A stretch of 64,000 nucleotides of DNA from Branchiostoma floridae (Eukaryota; Chordata; Leptocardii; Amphioxiformes; Branchiostomatidae), in the NCBI RefSeq assembly GCF_000003815.2, contig NC_049991.1, positions 5,301,822 to 5,365,821 on the forward strand, written 5' to 3'. Both the position numbers and the translations under genes were made by a program. The notes under the pieces were generated by a model. That model was not told where the DNA came from. It searched no databases and saw nothing but the letters and a program-made list of their open reading frames with translations. Below, piece after piece: positions 1-64,000 of the stretch (positions are counted from its first letter, which is position 1; each line of letters opens with the position of its first letter).

Positions 1-1642
<1,642 letters not shown>

Positions 1643-3021
1643 GAAAATCCAACATAAAATAGAACATTTTAAAAAGTCCCGTTACAAAAAATGCAGATTT
1701 GTTTTATAATTGTTTTCCAGAGAATCGTTTTGCTGAGAATCTGAATGAAATATCACTTCAAGTCCATAACCTCGAAGCCAACAGTACAAAATAGTAAACT
1801 TGTGTAAAGATGAATTGAATGTGTATGAATATATACAATTCTGACTGTGTGATCTTTAGATAAACATTGTACTCTGTTTGCCATTGCTTCTAGTGCTGTA
1901 TAGTGCTGTGATTTGTGGCCTTAACTTTGGATTGGCGGCTAAGTGTACAATACTACAATAAAGCCTTCTTCTATGTGTACATTCGAAAGCTGATTAAAAC
2001 ACATGCCAACATATACAGTTATCGTACCTAGCCTGTTTAATGCAGTTTGATTATATCACCGAAAGAGACGTTTATCTTTGATTTTCTGTTTTTGATTTTA
2101 CATAATGTAAGTGTTTAAGTCCAGATTATACTTCTCTGCTTTAAATGGCAGCAGTGACGATAATGCTTTATTATGTAAGGAAGGTTAAGTATTGTCCAAC
2201 TGTCGGACATAAAACTTCTAAATATCAGTGTTTGCTTTGAAAGTTTCTTCAACAAACAATGCAAGTAAACAACAGTGCTGGTAACAGACTTTTCTCAACA
2301 AGGGGAAAGAGTCCAATTCCTCAGTCAAGTTTTAACACATCTTGAAAATTAACTAAATGCCATGAAATTTGATATAAATGATTTGATTTCCTTAGCATTA
2401 AACGTCATACATGTTCATCTCCACAAATATATAGCATAAAGTATTACTATTGTTGTGGCTGATACGCGAAATGATCTTAAGAAAGATTATTTCCATTACA
2501 CAGTTCTTTACAAACATGTTACAATGTGATGATAAAGAATCGAAGAATAAAGTTTTTGAAAAAAAAAATGGTTGCGTTGAACTTGGAATTGTACCTGTTC
2601 ATCAGTCACATATTAATACAGACGGTAGGATACCTGTTACTATGTTTTATTTGTAAGGCTCCCTCTGTCTGCCCCCGACCATTGCTCCTTATTTGGTCTT
2701 CAACACCAACGTTTTTATCAAACAGGGCTGTGATTGGTTACTACGAAATCTGATAAGATTTCACATCACCTGTTGGCTGTGTTCTAACCAATAAACTGGC
2801 ACGTTGAAACCACAGGTGAAGTTTTGGAACGGACGTTCCCTCAGCCCTGCAGACCTCAATCAAAACGTAGAAATGCAAATTAGAAACAAAAATGCAAATG
2901 TTTGACGGACATGCAGCCCCTCTCTCATTGGTTATATCACTATTGTCATTCTCTCAATTGTGATAGGCAGGGTCGGTCTGCTAAAGCCACACGTGCATTC
3001 TGGACTGTCGTAGAAGACGCC
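1643..3021. other. ACO2 3'UTR and ACO2-ZAR1 intergenic region
   Basis: About 320 bp of ACO2 3'UTR is followed by about 1 kb of AT-rich sequence with no supportable exon. Close to ZAR1 there are CCAAT-like ATTGG motifs (for example around 2928-2932), and a pyrimidine-rich stretch ends in AG near 2965-2971. That stretch could be a splice acceptor if ZAR1 has an upstream exon. Nothing else is recognisable. Confidence 0.5.
1957..1962 (+). terminator. ACO2 polyadenylation signal
   Basis: Canonical AATAAA, 315 bp after the ACO2 stop, preceded by ordinary AT-rich 3'UTR sequence. It is the first canonical signal after the stop. Confidence 0.6.
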
Positions 3022-5127
3022 ATGCCGGAGAAAGGCACGCAGTACCCCTTACCAGAAAAGGGGGTGCAAACTCCGGACCATTGGCCGCCGCGTGCATCCA
3101 AGTCGGCTGTGCTCTGGGGGACAAGATACAAGAATCCCCAGCGACCGACTCTGAGGGTATCTGCGCTTTCTCCCGTGCAAGAATGCTCCGAGCCAGAGGC
3201 ACGGGAGGAGACGACGCCTGGACGCGGAGGTGGTCGACGTCGCCGCCGCAGACGGCGCAACGTGGCCGCCCCGCATCCCGAAAATGAACCCACCGAGCAG
3301 ACTCAAGCCCGCCGCCGCCGTAAGAAAAAAGCCGACCCCAGTGCGCCTTTTGACGAAACCTACGAAACCGTGCCCTTTGATGAGACTTATTCTGTCGCCA
3401 GCGAGTCTGGAACGGATCAGTTTGGAACGACAACGGGCCATGATGATGGAAACGTGACGGAATCAAAAGCGCCATCTACTGACCACCCACCCGAAACTGC
3501 AGTCTCGAATGAGGATGAGCGCTTGATGCCTAAACCCCAGCGAACACGCACTCGTCGGTCGAAGCAGAAGAACGGAGAAGAGATCGTCAAAGATATCGAA
3601 GAACATAAAGAAACGGAGGTGAAAGAAGAAGAGGCAAAGAGAGAAGAGACGCCCACGGCATCACCAGAGGACGTGAAGGGGGTTCCTGGGGACACCGCAC
3701 CAATTGAGAGGTCTGGGCGCCGCTTGTTCTCAGAGTCCTCCACTGGATCCACAGAACATAGGGTAAGTTATATTAACAAAATAATACACATACACGACAT
3801 AACATGTACACATACACATAGCTGTCAATGTCAATGGTGCGCTCTGGCCATACTGATATCGATTTGATTGTTTCGATAGCATCAACTAGGCACCCCAAAC
3901 TGATGCGAGCATGGGAAAAAGGGGTTCTTAACTCCATTTTAAAATAAATGTGGTCAGGAAGGTGGAACAAATAGTATCTGTTTTCCAATACATTATTTTG
4001 TCGATAGGAAGACTGTACCAGCCAAGACGAAGACGCTACCGCTGATAAGAAGAAGTTGCGTAAGGAGCGGAAACGCCTGTTCTTTGAGCAGAAGTACGGA
4101 TACTTCCACTGCCATAACTGTGACTGGCGCTGGGAGAGCGCTTACGTGTGGTGTGTGTCAGGGACGGACAAGGTAAGTATAAAGTAGATCAATTTTATTT
4201 TCTGTAGCAATTAATAAGGCAATTCGTGGTTTCAACTACATGCAAGCGCGGCGATATCCTTTTAAGGTGAATGTCTCCAAATAAGCCCCATTACAGAGAT
4301 CAGAACGCATGTGCGGCGACAGGAATTCTAGGTAATATGTCAAAGGTAAAGGCCCCGAAAAAGAAAACTAAACCCGTCTGGACGTTGTCCTGTAAATTGA
4401 AACAATGGTCGAGACAAGAACTGTTTTCTTTTTCGGGTCCTTTACTACTGTTTACACATTCGCTAGAATTCCTGTTGCCGCACATGGGTTCTGATCTCTT
4501 TGAGAGGGCTTGTTAGTCCACCAAACTGCGTGATTTCATTGTCTATAACATGTAATAAGCCAGTTCGCGGTTTCAACTACCCATGGTCATTCGCAGCAAC
4601 ATCCCTTGTGAATAGAAACCGGGAGATTTAAAGACTATCGACCAGAGGGTTTGTCCATTTTGTCCAGAGCTAATATTGAAGACGAATATTACTTATTGGC
4701 TGTATGTCTGAAATATTCTGATTACGTAATTCACTTTACACAAAAAGTTTTATACGAAGATTCATAATGACATGTGATAAATTCTTCAAAGTATCATGTA
4801 TTGTGGTATAAGGCCAATGGCCATTATTTATTTAAGATATATCTGATGGTCTAAATAAAAATGTCCCCATATGCGCAGGTATATTTCAAGCAGGATTGCC
4901 GCCTATGCCAGAACGCCATCAACCCGTACTTTGTGGAGGGTCTCTACTGTGGTCGGTGCCGAGAGTCTCCCTGCAAGTGTCCACAACGCCCCCGTGCGGA
5001 CATGAGCATGCAGTACAACCCCGGCGAGCTCAACTCAAGGAAGCTGCATCGCCGGGAGCTTTGCCATCGTTGCCGAGACAAACCTATCCCTTGTAATGCT
5101 ATTCCCAGCTTTAAGTACCAAGTCTAA
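3022..5127 (+). CDS. ZAR1: Zygote arrest 1 family protein (ZAR1-like), three exons
   Basis: ZAR1 proteins bind maternal mRNA 3'UTRs in oocytes, repress translation and support the oocyte-to-embryo transition (family knowledge). Exons: 3022-3762, 4008-4172, 4879-5127 (TAA), all joined in phase 0; about 384 residues. The last two exons encode the conserved zinc-binding domain: KYGYFHCHNCDWRWESAYVW, then VYFKQDCRLCQ, then further CxxC pairs ending SFKYQV. Exon 1 is low complexity, with an Arg run GGGRRRRRRRR, a basic RRRRKKK stretch and an acidic E/K region. The start is uncertain: ATG 3022 has a good context (gacgccATGc), but the frame is open to an ATG at 2911 (37 more residues) and an upstream exon is possible. 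ZAR1 and ZAR1L cannot be told apart here. Confidence 0.92.
4295..4499. repeat. Long foldback (hairpin) element in ZAR1 intron 2
   Basis: Outer arms begin AGAGATCAGAACGCATG at 4295 and mirror CACATGGGTTCTGATCTCT ending at 4499. Inner segments also pair (GCCCCGAAAAAGAAAAC against GTTTTCTTTTTCGGG). Nearly the whole 205 bp can therefore fold into one imperfect hairpin with a short loop near 4395-4410. Part of the loop, GAGACAAGAACTGTTT, recurs near 167-182. It is probably a foldback MITE; no clear target duplication was found. Confidence 0.7.
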
Positions 5128-19830: not shown

Positions 19831-20345
19831 TTTCAAACCGGGCAGGGAAAAACCTAGACGGCAAGGACACTTTCACTGACCTCTGACCCTTCTTGTCAGC
19901 AAAGACCACACAGCCTTCCAATGATGAACATGTTAGTAAAAGAAAATGTACTCAGAATTTCTTATAATCGGTTATCGTTTATACATATGATTATACATAT
20001 GTTAATATTATAAATGCAAATTCGTTTGTCAGAAAGAAGTTTTGTACAACAGTCTGATTTTCGAAATTGAAAGAATAATTAGTTATAGTATGGGGTCTTG
20101 GCCACATTTGTAACAGGGTGCCGCCATCTTTGCGAAGAGCGCGCACGTCGGCTGCAGATGATTTGCAAATCTTTGCTTTAATCTGAAGAATTCCTAAGCT
20201 AATGGGTCATTTCCTCCAAGAACTTGAGTCCAGGAACCTCCAGGAATCAGTTCAAACCGATTTGCGAGCCACAGGTAAGAGGATTGTGTGGTATTTGTCG
20301 GGATATGTTTCAAGGCTTAGCTGGGCGCCTCTTGTGGCATGAAAT

Positions 20346-20427
20346 GGTAGCGTGGCCGAGCGGTCTAAGGCGCTGGTTTAAGGCACCAGTCATTTCGATG
20401 GCGTGGGTTCGAATCCCACCGCTGCCA
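20346..20427 (+). tRNA. tRNA-Leu (anticodon AAG)
   Basis: 82 nt folding as a class II tRNA. Acceptor stem GGTAGCG/CGCTGCC closes with one G-T pair and discriminator A. The A box is GTGGCCGAGCGG. The anticodon stem CTGGT/ACCAG encloses loop TTAAGGC, so the anticodon is AAG. A long variable arm and the B box GGTTCGAATCC are present. A TTTTT Pol III terminator follows at 20433-20437. No intron. It lies 213 bp before the POLR3E start codon on the same strand. Confidence 0.96.
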
Positions 20428-20432
20428 AGACC

Positions 20433-29600: not shown

Positions 29601-32600
29601 TTTGCATGTTGGGATGAACAAAAATTTCTCCCAGTCTGATAAAAAAAATCTCAACTATATGACATAAAATTAAAAAAAAAATTAAAATATATTTTTACAA
29701 GCAACTAGTAAAAAAAACTCATTTGAGTTTGTAGAGTTTATCATGGTCCAGAAATAGCTTGACAATTAAACGTTACATATTGTAGCTATTCTTCCTGTGG
29801 TTGACCATTATTATATTAACTAAATGCTGTGCAAAACCAATATGACACACAGGAAATATAACATCAGCAAACTGTACATTTATACATATGGGCAAGAAGG
29901 AGTAACCAAAGATAGTTGTGTATAATGCCTTTCCTTCTCCACCATAGTGACATCCTGTACCCCAAAGACACATGCAGCCCCCATAGTGGCACCCCTGCTG
30001 AGCTGGTGTGCAGAGGCAGGGACTATGTGGTTAGTGTTTAGATTTGTCAAGCTTCAAGCCACTTTTTATATCTTTCATATGTGCATACAATAAAATTCTT
30101 AGAAAAGAGTTTTGTGTAGTTCGTCATGCAAAAATGTAAGCCAGAACTATAGATACACAAGAGTACAGGTTGTCAACATACTATTAGATCACAATCATGG
30201 TGATGGGAAACTTTGGTACCTTTTCACAGTCCTCTCAACATATAAGTGTTGTGACGTGTGATGTGTATGACGACCATTTTCTTACTGTTTTGTAGATGTG
30301 GCGCTTCACCCAGTTTAGATTCATAGTGAGGAAGGAAGTCACTTCCATCATCAAGGTTGGTGTACACTTGAATAACTACATGTACTAGTATCTATGGTAG
30401 ATGCTATCTTTTTCCCTCCATAAGGCCATTTTGTTGCCATTATACTAGTATGCTAATAAAAAAAAGGTTTCTATCATAATTATAAGATACCAGTAAATTG
30501 TACAGAGCAGAGAAAATGTATGTGGGAACTTGCAAATAAATATTCATTGTATCAGGTAATGGATACTGTTATAGAATGGCCAAAGGCAAGTTTCAAAGTC
30601 TAGCCCGGTAACCTATGTCGCCCCCCGTCTTTGTTGAAGGTGGTTTCTGCAGGCTGGCATATACTAGTATACCCCCTCCTTCACTCCTCCTTTTAACTGT
30701 GTTGACTTGTGTTGATCTCAGCTGCCACATGAAGATGTGAAGGAGATTTTTGAACAGCTGGCCGTGGTGCGTGTGAACAAAGGCTGGGAGTTCCTCCTGC
30801 CACATGACCAGGACTTTGTGGACAGGTATCCTGACGTGGTGCAGAGGCAACAGATGCTCTGGGATGCCAAGTATTCACAGTGAGTCATCATGTTCTATAC
30901 AACCGATGAATTTACTTTAGCCAGAACACACAACACTTCTGTACAGTACTGGGGATATGGCCACTACTGGCGATACGGACACAACTGGGTGTACGGACAC
31001 TACTGGGGGTACGGATACTACTGGGGGTACGGACACTACTGGGGGTACGAACACTACTGGGGGGACGGACACTACTGGGGGTACGGACACTACTGGGGGT
31101 ACGGACACTACTGGGGGTACGGACACTACTGGCGATACGGGCACTACTGGGGGCACGGGCACTACTGGGGGTACGGATACTACTGGGGGTACGGATACTA
31201 CTGGGGGTACGGACACTACTGGGGGTACGGACACTACTGGGGGGACGGACACTACTGGGGGTACGGACACTACTGGGGGTACGGACACTACTGGGGGTAC
31301 GGACACTACTGGCGATACGGGCACTACTGGGGGCACGGGCACTACTGGGGGTACGGATACTACTGGGGGTACGGACACTACTGGGGGTACGGGCACTACT
31401 GGGGGCACGGGCACTACTGGGGGCACGGACACTTCTGGGGGTGCGGGCACTACTGGGGGTGCGGGCACTACTGGGGGTGCGGGCACTACTGGGGGTGCGG
31501 ACACTACTGGGGTGTGGGCACTACTGGGGGTACGGACACTTCTGGGGGTGCGGACACTACTGGGGGTGCGGACACTACTGGGGTGTGGGCACTACTGGGG
31601 GTACAGACACTTCTGGGGGTGCGGACACTACTGGAGGTGCGGACACTACTGGGGGTATGGACACTACTGGGGGTATAGATACTTCTGGGGGTATGGACAC
31701 TTCTGGGGGTGCGGGCACTACTGGGGGTGCGGACACTACTGGGGTGTGGGCACTACTGGGGGTACGGACACTTCTGGGGGTGCGGGCACTTCTGGGGGTG
31801 CGGACACTACTGGGGTGCGGACACTACTGGGGGTGCGGACACTTCTGGGGGTATGGACACTTCTGGGGGTATGGACACTACTGGGGGTACGGACACTATT
31901 GGGGATACGGACACTACTGGGGGTACGGACACTTCTGGGGGTACGAACACTACTGGGGGTGCGGGCACTACTGGGGGTGCGGACACTACTGGGGGTACGG
32001 ATACTTCTAGGGGTACGAACACTACTGGGGGTACGGACACTACGGGGGTACAGACACTACGGGGGTACAGACACTGCTATGGGTGCGGACATTACTGGGG
32101 GTAAGGACACTACTGTTACCTAGTTTTTGCAAAGTTTATTGAGATTACTTTTGAGCTCTTTTTTTTACAGATTGTCCAAGTTGTTAAAGCTGGCCAAGGG
32201 GGACACTCCTAAGAAAGGAAAGGAGCCCATCCACCCAGGTAATGATACCATGCGCGGATCCAGGGGGAGGCGCGCCAGGCGCCTCCCCCTTCAGCTGGCA
32301 AAAAAAAAAAAAAAAAAAAAAGATTAGCAAGATAAACCCAGGCTACTAGGGGTCTTCGGAAGTTATGCCAAGAATATTGACAACGTTATAAAACTAATTC
32401 GCTTATTTGAAAGGAGATTTTCTGGTAATTATTAAGAGAAACTTGCAGTTTGCAATTAATATTGGGTCTTTCGAGTCACGTAAACTTACGGTAAAGGCCC
32501 GGGGCGCGGCTGCATCAATTTCTCCCCAAGAAACTGGTGGGTCGCTGTAAGCCAAAATTGGCGCTCAAAGATATAGAAAGAGCGTGAAAATTTTGAAAGA

Positions 32601-39771: not shown

Positions 39772-42700
39772 ATGCACGCGGTAACCCAGTGTTCACGGCT
39801 TTCCTCCCAAATTATCCGTTTAGGACGGTCTTTCTCAAGGTAAGAAACTTAAAACGTTGCGTATTGGTTTCCATGTAAGGTAGTTACCGTTTTGGCATAG
39901 CTGTTGTCTTTTGGATACAGTGCAAAATCACGCTATGATTTACGTCGTTTTGTAACCCCCCTCCCATTTTTTAATACCGGCCTGTCACAAAATTATAAAC
40001 CACACAGAAATATTGACGCATAGACAGTGAAAGTAACGTAATATGTATGCCGTAACCTGATGGTAACGCTCATCATCAAAGCAAGTATACCGAAGTCACG
40101 GGTTCCGCACTGGGCGCCCAGTGCGGAATTCGTGGAGAAACTGGCGTCGGCACTCGGGGCCCAGTACGGAAGAAACTTCCGCACAGGAATTCCAGTGCGG
40201 AAGGGTTTTTTCGAGTGCTGAAGACCCGTCAGCACTGGAATTCCAGAGCTACACCTTGTCTCGGCACTCGTTTTCCAGTGCCGAACTCCGCCCAGCACTC
40301 GGTTTCTAGTGCCGAACTCCGCCCAGCACTCGGTTTCTAGTGCTGATCTCCGCTCAGCACTCGGTTTCTAGTGCGGAAGGGTGGTTCAAAGATCGTTCAG
40401 CACTGGTTACCCAGTGCGGAGGTCTTTGAGCACTGGATAACCGAGTGCCGATCTACCTAAGTCACGGGTTCCGCACTGGGATTTCTAGTGCTCGGTGACT
40501 TTTCGGCACTAGAGGCCGAGTGCTAAGACCACTTCGGCACTAGAAGCCGAGTGCTACTATCATTTTAAGACCGTCAGCACTGGGTTACCAGTGCTCGCGT
40601 CCAAATTGTTACTCAAAAACATACTAGTACTCAGTATTTTAAATCAATTTTGCCCTAGTCTTGTCTCTGTTGGAACTCGAAACAGCATGTGTGTATCATA
40701 CGCTACATCCTACATGTATATAGTGTTATGTAAATGATGACCTCGTGTCAACAGTGTGTCAGCTTCGTTCCCTTTTTCTAAATTTCACGAAGATAAAATG
40801 CCAATAAATTACAGCTCCCTTTGTCGTGTTTGAGTTGCAGACTACTTTCAATCAATCGTTCGCATGCATCATTTGTTGATGCGTGGCGGCTACAGACAGT
40901 TTAGACAGTTCTACTTTGGTCACGAAAAAAAAAATGTCTAAATAAGAAAGATAATTGATATGTACTGTTCTTTGAAAACCCGACACGGATATTTCCTCCC
41001 ATACGCAGCTTTCTCAGGCTCAAGGTGAACGATTTGTTACACTTCTTTTATGTATTACATTTGTATATGTGTGCCTTTAACTGCCCGGAACTGTAAATAA
41101 CGTAACGCACTCCGAGGCAGGCTGTCAGCACTCGCGGTTTCAAGTGCGGAATATTTGTCGTCACTGGTTTTCCTGTGCGGAATATTTGTCGTCACTCGTT
41201 TTCTAGTGCGGAATATTTGTCGTCACTCGTTTTCTAGTGCGGAATATTTGTCGTCACTCGTTTTCTAGTGCGGAAGGTAGTCTCAGCACTCGGTTTCTAG
41301 TGGTGAATCGGGGGTTTTCAGTGCTGAAGTCGACTCACCACTGGACACCTAGTGCGGACGTAACGTCGGCACTAGACTTCTAGTGCGGAAGGCCCCTTCC
41401 GCACTAGACACCGAGTGCTGAGAGAGGAACCCGTGACTTCGGTAGTTTTGCATCATCAAACAACTGCTCATTTTGGGGGGAGGGGGGCATAACTGTGTCA
41501 TGTCAAATTATCAATCATAATAATTATTCTGTCTATATTTTTAAATGGTCACAGGGGGTGTTGGGACATACCTGAATTCACCGCGGTACCGTTAATCATA
41601 GAGGGTCTGCATGCTCTTTTCGGTATAGCCTATGTAGCCTAATTTGATTATGATTTCCTTTAATTTGTAGGGAAATCTCTAAAACTCTACACCTTGCCAT
41701 GATGGCTTGGTTTAGAGAATGGAAAAGCCTAACCACCACCTCCCACTCCATCCATACCATTCCCTTCTTGGTTGCTCTTCTCCCCCTTGCAATTTTTTCC
41801 TAGTATAAGTAAAACATGTGGTCACTCTATAACATTAACAAAGGGGAAATTTCCTCCTCAGATCTTCCCTCCACAGATGCAGCCTGAGACCACAGCAGCA
41901 GAGGAGATTACTACACGTTACCAGGACGACATGCACGTCAACAACAGAACCACTAGCACCGCCCTTAGCTGATGGAGAAACAAAGGAGATCCCGCCCAAA
42001 ATCCAGAAAATAGTAGACGACATAGCAACCCTCACCCTCTTGGAAGTGTCTGAGCTTAATGCCTTACTTAAAGTGAGTAAAGAATTTGAACTTATAAGTA
42101 CTTTCACAGATCCAACTGTGCATGCACAGGTCAAAGTTGAAAACCCTGGGCTGTCACAGTTATGTCTTGACTATGTTTCATACATGTCCAAATGAATGGC
42201 CTCCATGGCCAGTTTGCATAGCATTGTCCAGGCATGTTTTATTTTTATGTCTCTAGCTTCACCTTTGACCTGTGCATGTGCACTTGGATCTGTGAAAGCA
42301 CTTATTTGGAAAGAGTTAATTTTTCTCCTCCTTGATTGTACAGAAGTATTGTTGTCACCACTCACTCACTCACCATGGTCAATTAATCTCAGTTATCCAA
42401 ATTATTAATGTTTTAGAAGCATTAACAGTTCCCTCAAGTTGTAGTAGATGTTAGGAAAGTTGTTAAAAGAGTTTCTTAAGCTTGAATTTCTCTCTGTTTC
42501 AGAAAACGTTCAACATTGCGGACACACCCATGATGCCAATGGGAGGTTTTGCAGCACCAGCTCCTAAGGTGAGCTAGAGCATGAGTGAAGTACGGGTCTT
42601 ACTCAGTGTCACTAACGAAAGGTAGTGGATACTACCTGAAAAGTTTCAAAATTCTATCCAGTTGCTTAAGAAACTGTTACCATTGCATATCTTATTACCC

Positions 42701-49256: not shown

Positions 49257-52200
49257 ATGGCGACCAGTCAGAGAAAGAAAGGAGGGGTTCAACGAGTCGA
49301 GGGCAAGTTACGGGCTTGTATCGAACGTGGAGACTACTATGAAGCTCACCAGATGTACAGAACACTTTATTTTAGGTATGGAGTAGGATTTCGTTCGCCC
49401 ATAGTCTATAGTTTGACCAGGAAAATAGAATACATACGTTCGTTCATGTAAAAAAATGATTGTCACTTCTGCTTTCGATTTTGATATTCGCAATATATTG
49501 TTTTCCACTGCCTATGTTTTAATGCAGATGTCGCACAAAATACTTAGAAGCCATGCTTATCGCTAAAACTTCAATTTTACGCTATTTTCTTGTAAAATAA
49601 TGGATTAATATGCTCAAAATCAGAATCTTGGTCATATTTTTTCTAGTATTGAATTCGATATGATTTGTACAGTGCAGCTACTATCAACAGCTAGTAGAAT
49701 TATAATTGTATTGGATAAGGACTATTAATATCATTATCAATAACGAATCTGTACAATGCACGGGATGCCATTTTGGTTATTGAAAGTAATCTATGGTACA
49801 CTATTTTTCTCTCTGTCCATATGTAGATACTCTGCCCAAAAGAAATACAGTGAAGCATTAGAGCTGACATATTCTGGAGCATCTCTTCTTCTGGAACACA
49901 ATCAGGTACTAGTATGTCAAATGGTAAAGTATTGTACTATGATGATTATTAATTACCTACACAGGTGAGCTAGATGAGCAAGAAGTAGGCTGATAAATAT
50001 TCAATGCTATTGCTAGTGATATATAAATCATATTTAAGGTCTCATTGATGAGTTTCTTCTTCCCATAGACTTCTATGTTATAATTCGTGGTTTAAATGGG
50101 CGCGTTCATAATGAAGCTACGTGAAATTACAGCAGATTTTTCATTCCATGTCGAGCACATTTGCCCTATATGGTGGGAAAAAATTACCAACGTAAACTAT
50201 ACGTAGAAACTTTTTTTATAGCAATGACACTACGATTAGTGAATCCCCACAAAAGGCACTTTTTTGCTGCTGGTGTACAACCGCACCACTCAGAACCCAC
50301 GACTGTGTACCTCCGACCTAGCGTGCGGCTGCAAAACTTTCCCTGCTAATTTCTTCAGTTACAAATAAGCTTTCACCAATTTAACTTCTGAGATCAGTTC
50401 CGCTGGCTAAAAGGGAATTTCTCATCGCTAAAAACACGCGTACGTGCAGTCGTTTATATTTTGGCTCGGATCTATTTTCGGGTACCCACTCGGAGTAATA
50501 CATCAATGAGACCTTATCTAGAGGTTAGAGGTTAAGATACAGGGTATCTAATATGGGGAAAGTCTACATAAAATGTCAGAATTTTACTAAAGAGTACAAG
50601 CTGCATATCAGGACAAATTTATTTTACCCACCCATACAACTATTACAAGGAAGGACCCCTTGTCTTTTCAGTAAGTGCGTTGGGTTCTTTATTACCAGTT
50701 TAACCTTATCAAATAAAAGGGATTTGTAGATAGATGTCATCCGTAGAAAATTTACTATGTGTGGCCTAGAACAATTACTATAAGTATAACGTGAGACTGT
50801 GTAGCGCAGTGGCAGTTTCTTCGGCCCGTGACCGAGAGGTTGCGGGTTCGAATCCGCCTACTGTGTTACCGATCTTGTGCCCTAATGGGAAAGGCACTTT
50901 ACACGACTTTCCTCACTTCAATTAAGTGAAAATGAGTACTCTCACCTCTCAAATAAACGTACCGGTACGTTTATTTTTTTCCGCCTCAGAATCCACCCGG
51001 TACGTCCTTATTTTAGACGGTACGTTTATTTTTTTTTCAAATTTGGGCTTTTTTGACTAACCAGGGAACTCACAAATATTGAAAGTTGGAATTTTCTGCC
51101 CATATTTCCGCAGTATTTTTGCTCAAAATTCACTAAATCTATCTAAAAAGTATCATTTTCCCCACGTAAATCTGTTGTTTACATTGTTGAAAGTTGCCGA
51201 CAGTCAGCAGTGGCGCGTGCGACCAACGCCCCCTGAAGGGCGGAGTTTTCTTGAGAGAAGCAGCTCCAGAGCTTTTCCGGCAAAAGTCTCAAATTACCCA
51301 CTAGCTTGATTTCACATTAACCAGCAAGTAAATTTAGAAGTGTGCAACTAATCTTGGACAAGTAAAAAAAAAATCCAATAAAGATATGGAAAGGTTTCAA
51401 GTGTGTTCTCTTCAAATTTCCGATGTATTTTATCTCTGTTTACATTGTTTGAGGCCGGCAGTGATGCCAGCCCATGTAGGCCTCCCCTAATGGACACGCC
51501 TCCAAGGGGGCGGAGTTAAATAACTCAAGCTTTGTGAGCCGGTGCCGCCTGTGATCATGGAGCCGGGAAGTCTACTAGGGTTGTGCCGTTGGCATGGGAA
51601 CCATCACAACATTTCTGTTAGATGTCGCATTCTCAGCTATATGTCCATCTTTCCCTGGTAACTTCTACACTAAAATGTATTTCTTTTTACCAACTTGCAG
51701 GTAAAGTTGTGGATAGAGAAAAAATTCTAGTTTATGCTGCTTGTGAAGTTGTAAAACTAAAAGATTATCCTTGCTCCAACAGAGTTCTCAGGTCTCTCAT
51801 GCATGTAACACTTTTGGGGGAGTGGCTACAGTGCTGAGTCTATGATCGAAACATTTGGGGAAGTTGTGTTTATTTTGGTTACTACTCCGTAAGCTTTTCT
51901 AAAGATAAACATGGCCAAATAACAATTTACTATTGTCTCTAAGTTTCCACTCAGTATTTTGAAATACAATATTACAAAATACGATTTTGTATTTCTATAA
52001 ACATCGAATCTTTTTCTAACTTGAAATGTGTTCTTTCCCTGCATTCAAGTGAACTGTTCCCCTAGATAATAGATGAAGTACAATGAATGGCATGAATGAA
52101 AGAGCTCTAACTTGTAGGAATTACACTGGGGATTGCTCTGGAAGGCTGTGAAACTGTTAGAGCTGTCCAGCTTTCTTTCTGAACTGGGGGTTATTTATTT

Positions 52201-63188: not shown

Positions 63189-64000
63189 ACGCTGGACACA
63201 GTCCGTTGGACGTACTGTTAACGGATAATACGCTGGCCACAGGACTGTTAACGAATAATACGCTGGCCACAGTCCGTTGGACGACTGTTAACGGATAATA
63301 CGCTGGACACAGTCAGTTGGACGTACTGTTAACGGATAATACGCTGGACACAGTCCGTTGGACGGACTGTTAACGGATAATACGCTGGCCACAGTCCGTT
63401 GGATGGACTGTTAACGGATAATACGCTGGACACAGTCCGTTGGACGTACTGTTAACGGATAATACGCTGGCCACAGTCAGTTGGACGTACTAGGGGTGGG
63501 TACCGGTACAGAAAATTCAGGTCCAGGTCCGGTTCAGGTCCAGATGATCAGGTCCAGGTCCGGACCTGAACCTGGACCTGATGCACTATGACTCATACTA
63601 ATGGTCCACTTCACTACAAAGAAGTCTGTTTGGTGGAGTATTAGACTTGCACTGGCGTTTTAAAACCCTACAACGCTACCTGCACCTGTACGATTGGCTT
63701 TAAAACATGGTAGAAATTACTATAAACTCTACTCTACTTCACTCTTGTTATTTTCTTCCACCTGCAAGCGCCAAAACGTGTGAATGCCTGTTAAAATAAT
63801 CTGTTAATGTTCTAATCGGTCCAACATCCGGTCCACCTAATTTTTTCAGGTCCGGTTTTTCTGGACCGGTCCAATAAGAAAAACCGGTTTGTTAACGGAT
63901 AATACGCTGGACACAGTCCGTTGGACGTACTGTTAACGGATAATACGCTGGCCACAGTCCGTTGGACGTACTGTTAACGGATAATACGCTGGCCACAGTC
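63189..64000. repeat. 41-bp satellite, continuing past the window end
   Basis: Tandem units of about 41 bp (ACGCTGGACACAGTCCGTTG plus GACGTACTGTTAACGGATAA plus T), roughly seven to eight at 63189-63490 and more from 63893 to the last base. Variants are GGACAC/GGCCAC and deletions of part of a unit. The array is interrupted at 63491-63888 by an unrelated repeat. Confidence 0.92.
63491..63888. mobile_element. GGTGGGTACC repeat inserted in the satellite
   Basis: About 398 bp beginning TAGGGGTGGGTACCGGTACA and ending with TTTCTGGACCGGTCC...AAAACCGG. Near the left end, AGGTCCAGGTCCGG and its inverse CCGGACCTGAACCTGGACCT form a hairpin (about 63513-63581). Related fragments are at 24196-24290, about 25600-25700 and 43580-43690. 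Interruption of a regular satellite shows a later insertion; no clean target duplication was seen. Confidence 0.65.

Follow-up and report, generated by a model that had tools for sequence, protein, structure and literature searches.

The palindrome-rich segment in the first intron of the MRPL12 gene of Branchiostoma floridae is a copy of a DNA transposon that occupies positions 40081-41451 of the window, i.e., the whole stretch of 64,000 nucleotides analysed here, and carries 26-bp terminal inverted repeats (TIRs) and a 9-bp target site duplication. It is probably a non-autonomous member of a group of at least two families that would be mobilised in trans by a Mutator-type (MULE/IS256) DDE transposase, with the arrays of palindromic units near its ends as predicted assembly sites. 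Its parts and the neighbouring exons are the following (window positions).

39772-39839, + strand: MRPL12 exon 1 (presequence); ATG at 39772, donor GTAAG at 39840
40072-40080, unstranded: left 9-bp target site duplication, ATCATCAAA, from border comparison over 33 copies
40081-40106, + strand: end A (left) TIR, GCAAGTATACCGAAGTCACGGGTTCC; 23 of 26 bases match the right end
40105-40596, unstranded: end A array of 14 palindromic units; centre gaps of 30.5-32.5, 40, 43 or 51 bp
40212-40221, unstranded: half-unit alone in the 51-bp gap of end A; its virtual centre follows the third unit by 20 bp and precedes the next by 31 bp
40447-40472, + strand: internal copy of the terminus, TACCTAAGTCACGGGTTCC; end A only, with a counterpart in the sister family
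40600-41110, unstranded: plain middle, differing in length and partly in sequence among copies
41126-41420, unstranded: end B array of 9 palindromic units; centre gaps of 31, 32 or 52 bp
41318-41327, unstranded: half-unit alone in the 52-bp gap of end B; counting inward from the right end, its virtual centre follows the third unit by 31 bp and precedes the next by 21 bp
41426-41451, - strand: end B (right) TIR, GCAAAACTACCGAAGTCACGGGTTCC on that strand, matched to the left TIR and to other copies
41452-41460, unstranded: right 9-bp target site duplication, ATCATCAAA, from border comparison over 33 copies
41844-42073, + strand: MRPL12 exon 2; acceptor AG at 41842-41843

The location in intron 1 of MRPL12, given by the original prediction, was confirmed: exon 2 matches the mitochondrial L12 chains of the PDB at 4e-9, exon 1 reads as a presequence and joins it in phase (a phase 2 junction), and the L12 C-terminal domain lies in a downstream exon. 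Elsewhere in the window, an 18-bp minisatellite of about 65 copies, G-rich on the + strand and with long open frames on both strands, was found at 30943-32115, and a tRNA-Leu(AAG) was predicted by ARAGORN at 20345-20428, where the overlapping open frames look spurious.

The ends of the element were established by comparison of 33 copies as GCAA...TTGC. A flanking duplication of 10 bp had been proposed, and CATCATCAAA does stand at both borders, but the duplication itself is the 9-bp ATCATCAAA; the 10-bp reading is wrong because the tenth base on the right is the element's own last base. As described earlier, CCGAAGTCACGGGTTCC is inverted at the ends, and a third copy of it, with 1 mismatch, lies in the left array at 40456-40472, where the chance mean for a CCGAAGTCACGGGTTCC-like match with up to 3 mismatches is 0.02.

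The genome searched was an assembly of 513.4 Mb in 431 contigs. With the window element as query, at least 152 matching stretches were obtained (40 of 590 candidates were scored), and the full copies match from about base 11 to base 1381 of the query, which fixes the ends of the element. The terminus TACCGAAGTCACGGGTTCC has 99 exact sites in the genome and its reversed control none. Identical 9-bp duplications flank 23 of the 33 family-1 copies that were read with both ends and flanks, a set in which L035 and L036 are both counted although they have the same flanks and look like one duplicated region. Dispersed copies with exact common ends and such duplications, also present in 8/8 copies of a sister family, bear out that this is a mobile element. 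Family-1 copies are recent; in an alignment of 21 copies, the one nearest to the window copy is 99.85% identical to it, and five copies, the window copy among them, have another copy at 99.7% identity or more when gaps are ignored. Copies are 0.8 to 4.4 kb long and the middle is replaced or interrupted in several of them, so that the arrays and tips are the part that the copies share. Short stretches at 51141-51220 and 51838-51921 of the window occur also in the middles of L054 and L060 and match L063 too; hence some middles share sequence with another dispersed repeat. At 63214-64000 there is a 41-bp tandem repeat; the 0.4-kb sequence that breaks it at about 63491-63890 has 89% likeness to an insert of copy L029.

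About twenty palindromic units had been noticed near the two ends, and 23 were counted in this study, 14 at 40105-40596 and 9 at 41126-41420. They have the form CNGCACTNG-N4(to 6)-CNAGTGCNG and are accompanied by two lone half-units in the 51- and 52-bp gaps. Among the best 15 pattern matches elsewhere in the window, one had 3 and the rest had 4 mismatches of 14, and exact matches to the 22-nt unit pattern number 1,912 in the 513-Mb assembly vs 2 for the reversed pattern. The arrays fetched, which represent part of these 1,912 sites, lay in copies with one or two TIRs, and no free satellite form of the array was seen in the places fetched. Searches with the array pattern of collections of viral contigs and of genome contigs gave no match, as is expected for an animal element. 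The 46 halves of the units yield the consensus T-C-V-G-C-A-C-T-V-G-R (TCVGCACTVGR, V = not T), with counts out of 46 of T 40, C 40, G 40, C 45, A 45, C 46, T 44, G 46 and R 38. T occupies the first V in 0/46 and the second in 1/46 of the halves of the element's 23 units; 1,620 half-sites over 37 loci (L009-L045, some family-2 units included) gave a similar consensus, with T at the two V positions 5 and 33 times.

The two letters at V are equal between the halves of a unit in 7/23 cases at each position, vs 7.5 and 7.0 expected. Since they are uncorrelated, the unit is best taken as a dyad of two independently read half-sites and not as a hairpin stem that is kept. It had been suggested at first that the units could be protein-binding sites or hairpins, and of these the sequence pattern favours the former, the latter being weakened by the chance pairing at V. 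Units acting as single-strand hairpins or cruciforms, whether as the target of a hairpin-recognising enzyme or through extrusion under supercoiling, would agree with the folding of the arrays, which is far better than that of shuffles (z -13.1 and -8.0), and with the fact that most units of the sister family are perfect palindromes outside the core. The middle, which had been called plain, folds no better than shuffles (z 0.74), unlike both arrays. However, chance pairing at the variable positions of family 1 means that stems are not kept up in that family, two TIRs together with a 9-bp target duplication are typical of DDE enzymes, and helical phasing of the units, presented below, would be superfluous for hairpins; this explanation is therefore regarded as improbable. 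Binding of protein dimers to duplex units is the reading preferred here.

The sister family (family 2) was met with in locus L039, where an element of this family interrupts a unit of a family-1 copy and has a copy of the duplicated TCCAGTGCG on either side. The uninterrupted site is supplied by other family-1 copies, which allows a direct empty-site comparison. Tips of family 2 read GCAA..TATACAAAAGTAACGG and its units TCAGCACTGG-N4-CCAGTGCTGA; the two families have 69-74% identity over the stretches that match. For TACAAAAGTAACGGGTTCC, 85 exact sites were found, end-A tips and internal copies together, vs 0 in the control. Ten chosen single sites were fetched as a sample, a second end was present in 8, and the 9-bp duplication was perfect in all 8 of these. 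The family-2 copies fetched are about 0.36 to 2.6 kb long, and in the loci fetched the V positions are nearly fixed (A in 293/308 and G in 282/308). A DNA search with family 2 gave at least 205 matches (40 of 501 candidates scored); those among the matches listed that could be paired by eye span less than about 2.3 kb.

Spacing of the units follows a similar plan in both families, and the plan of end A is unlike that of end B. Counted from the tip with half-units included, the steps at end A are 43, 31, 20, 31, 32, 31, 31, 31, 43, 30.5, 43, 32.5, 31 and 40 bp in family 1 and 44, 31, 31, 21, 31, 31, 31 and 31 bp in family 2 (L039), where they are less clean further in (31.5, 42 and 32.5). At end B they are 32, 31, 31, 21, 32, 31, 31 and 31 bp in family 1 and 32, 31, 31, 31, 21, 31, 31 and 31 bp in family 2. 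The families differ by one unit before the half-unit, and the same steps return in both. From the tip to the centre of the first unit the distance is 35.5 bp at end A and 42.5 bp at end B (43.5 bp at end B of family 2, one flanking base included), and the internal TIR copy is confined to end A. Identical end-A gaps of 44, 31, 52, 32, 31, 31, 42, 31.5, 42, 32.5, 31 and 32 bp were read in L075, L076, L078 and L079; L077, L080, L082 and L083 are off in one gap or two; the arrays of L081 and L084 are short.

When periods of 7-20 bp were scanned, the unit centres fitted best at 10.35-10.45 bp in 4/4 arrays, i.e., both ends of the window element and of L039, so that the centres lie on one face of the DNA and a step mostly amounts to 2, 3 or 4 helical turns. 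The helical repeat of B-DNA is close to this period. Under a conservative null in which equal gaps were kept equal, the observed coherence was reached in 84, 193, 203 and 25 of 5000 trials; an earlier p of 0.00026, in which the gaps were treated as independent, is superseded by this null. One 40-bp step of family 1 fits the phase poorly, being off by about 2 bp, and the phase is partly inherited through 31-bp tandem duplication. Because the four arrays are homologous, their p-values are not independent, and with the 40-bp step being off as well, the phase is supporting and not independent evidence.

Constraint was assessed as the number of variable alignment columns in 21 full copies, which are related to each other so that the p-values and site counts are only indicative. 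Variable columns amount to 5/50 in the TIRs, 22/322 in the unit arms, 8/94 in the cores, 15/92 at V, 40/296 in the linkers and 94/506 in the middle. The arms are less variable than the linkers (p=0.007), also when CpG columns are removed (14/274 vs 34/262, p=0.0014). Counted by columns, the TIRs are hardly less variable than the linkers; counted by letters (5/1050 vs 95/6149), they are more constant. Excess variation at V is not significant with CpG columns removed (4/47 vs 14/274, p=0.31), and V positions may be merely mutable, but mutability alone leaves the shortage of T at V unexplained.

These data bear also on the possibility that the arrays are a functionless by-product of short-period slippage that amplified a palindrome inside the ends. 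The unit number does differ between copies by whole 31-bp steps, and two runs are near-identical tandem repeats. On the other hand, arms are less variable than linkers, and the 20/21-bp half-unit step as well as the first gaps of 43/44 bp at end A and 32 bp at end B recur in both families, which are 69-74% identical in the stretches matched. A functionless by-product of this kind thus appears unlikely. Recruitment of a host protein by the arrays, such as a silencer, insulator or transcription factor, with the TIR alone sufficing for movement, would also be compatible with spaced palindromes, which suit host dimers too; in the copies read, however, the plan depends on how far a unit lies from each tip, and little probability is given to this alternative.

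Returning to the arrays as predicted nucleoprotein assembly sites, at which we infer dimer binding from sequence, each palindromic unit would be a duplex binding site for a homodimeric protein that an autonomous copy would encode, either the transposase itself or a partner of it. Bound dimers would be aligned because the unit centres keep one helical face, and aligned dimers could compact each end, 300-500 bp long, by wrapping or stacking it, and so draw the two ends together. The short TIR would then serve as the cutting site, with the unequal ends A and B being paired before the tips are cut. As the plans of the two ends differ (first centre at 35.5 vs 42.5 bp, internal TIR copy in A only), such an assembly would be asymmetric. 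Asymmetric end assemblies are found in Mu and Tn7. A further reading, taken as a whole a long shot, is that palindromic dimer sites in helical phase make up an assembly code of the ends, with separate A and B plans, which an as yet unseen animal transposase would use along an IS256-like copy-out/paste-in route.

Evidence possibly related to such a route comes from the 10/33 family-1 copies in which an identical duplication is missing, the duplication being split in five, displaced in one and not clear in four (L010, L011, L030 and L037). In L014, L019, L032 and L035/L036 the right copy of the duplication is split by an insert of 5-6 nt that holds GCAA, the sequence of the element's own tip; in L014, L019 and L035/L036 the insert lies 5 bp outside the right tip with GCAA as its first bases, and in L032 GCAA begins 8 bp outside. 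GCAA near right ends (4/32 copies) is not enriched, other tetramers reaching 6, and is worth attention only inside the split duplications. Four independent split duplications have the geometry expected from an aborted reaction in which one end had attacked the DNA flanking the other. They could possibly have been caused by aborted copy-out, and templated repair is another possible cause. In L033, the 9-bp duplication GTTTGCTAT is set off from the left tip by 9 nt; between the two, GCAAAAACC was observed, which resembles the other tip.

In the stretches read, neither an autonomous copy with these ends nor a transposase was found. Among the longer copies, by-eye inspection of the open frames in the insert of the 4.4-kb copy revealed no transposase, and the 3.6-kb copy contains a repetitive insert. 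Three left-only copies taken as candidates for long copies are actually 1.9-2.3 kb with another middle. In 17 more unpaired termini, read over about 1.9 kb each, no transposase was recognised by inspection of open frames; among the unpaired termini, L059 and L063 are whole copies with an altered second TIR, and L058, L061 and L064 look truncated. For L080 no second end was present within 10.8 kb; a candidate FAR1-like piece in one of its open frames is without Pfam support.

In the genome (G000), MULE domains were detected at 27 places and PF20700 at 40, several of them in long open frames. No unit arrays were seen in stretches of 4-5 kb at 10/27 MULE places or flanking PF20700 at 10/40 places, some of which hold runs of N; only single weak unit-like matches occurred in both sets. 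By eye from the listed coordinates, the MULE place nearest to a family terminus is 17 kb away on C9, with the DNA between partly read and holding Ns, and the nearest PF20700 place is 37 kb away on C4. L049 (G000:C9:6718700-6723700, ~153-4123) is a MULE element with a 590-aa open frame containing MULE and FLYWCH domains; its inverted ends carry tandem repeats of their own, of the CAACTCGGACCAT type, and no duplication was seen at its borders. In the part of PMC6446971 consulted, a MULE transposase is reported as undetectable for B. floridae. The 40 places with PF20700, a Mutator-type transposase domain, include ten in open frames of about 610-750 aa, and in L088/L089 an inverted repeat, TGGTGTGTGCACCGTTAA, surrounds one such domain.

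Since no autonomous copy was found, we infer the superfamily from the 9-bp duplication, the replaced middles and the subterminal repeats, which together place the element as Mutator-like; other superfamilies with duplications of 8-10 bp may also be its source. Mutator elements and MULEs have target site duplications of 8-11 bp, TIRs that are often long and, in non-autonomous copies, variable internal sequence. The 9-bp duplications of 23/33 copies and 8/8 sister copies agree with this, as do middles varying in length and sequence, and the 26-bp TIR is short for the group. Of the two comparisons originally offered, the Mutator-like one fits the duplication of 9 bp, but CACTA fails. CACTA/EnSpm elements have CACTA/G termini and duplicate 2-3 bp, and the GCAA termini and 9-bp duplication exclude membership. 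The hAT elements, with 8-bp duplications and CAGNG-like ends, were rejected for the same two features, and Helitrons and other HUH elements, which have no target duplication and one 3' hairpin, were rejected because of the 9-bp duplications and two TIRs. P and Galileo elements encode a THAP plus P-type transposase and produce duplications of 7-8 bp; membership was rejected on the 9-bp length found here, from which that of Galileo differs. An element of the P/Galileo/Foldback type, its long ends carrying arrays of THAP-like sites, would be in line with Galileo, whose ends are long and repetitive and contain several binding sites for THAP (PMC3688188), but given the 9-bp duplication it is considered a poor prospect.

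No described family with this unit was encountered in the literature searched, Repbase and Dfam not being part of the comparison. The purpose of the long, variable ends of Mutator-like elements is treated as an open question in the part of PMC6446971 consulted, and the role of the tandem repeats of Foldback and Phantom ends as binding sites is called untested in that of PMC3688188. The repeat described here is a clean palindrome with a spacing that follows the helix and a plan that is common to two families and differs between the ends. The "subterminal repeats" thereby become a testable design for the end complex of a transposon, of which a single genome offers dozens of natural variants.

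Likeness to known systems, as far as the consulted parts of the sources go, is partial in each case. Rehavkus, a MULE outgroup, shares the 9-bp duplication, a TIR from 26 bp and repeats before the 3' TIR (PMC6446971); these repeats are a minisatellite, the transposase has a PHD finger and the distribution is in Arthropoda and Annelida (PMC6446971), whereas arrays are present at both ends here. IS256 and ISCth4 have transposases similar to those of MULEs, with 8-bp duplications in ISCth4, and their end-joining spacers (6-8 bp in ISCth4; 5, 6, 7 and 19 bp in IS256) resemble the 5-bp scars seen here, but these elements are bacterial, the TIR of ISCth4 is 31 bp and arrays are unmentioned in the part of the source consulted (PMC7780238). 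Palindromic subterminal repeats as such are already known from the soybean CACTA elements Tgmt*/Tgm, in which subterminal direct and inverted repeats form palindromes (12 at one end, 2 at the opposite one) and are thought to bind an element-encoded protein; they differ in the CACTA termini, the 3-bp duplication and the unit, TTGGCAG plus AATCTTACAG (PMC2613891). Muta1 of Aedes aegypti, grouped with the Phantom MULEs (PMC6446971), is similar in its duplications of 8-9 bp, its subterminal repeats and its non-autonomous copies with unrelated middles (PMC5225508). Its repeats, however, are tandem, with 9 copies of 12 bp separated by spacers of 3-4 bp inside 145-bp TIRs (PMC5225508), in contrast to the palindromic 24-bp units at about 31 bp, the short 26-bp TIR and the unequal ends described here. 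Galileo, of the P superfamily in Drosophila, has several transposase THAP sites in its repetitive ends, for which a higher-order complex was suggested, but its TIRs are 1.2 kb long and three sites were reported (PMC3688188). Muta1 and the binding data on Galileo are the best functional parallels to the arrays of the MRPL12 element.
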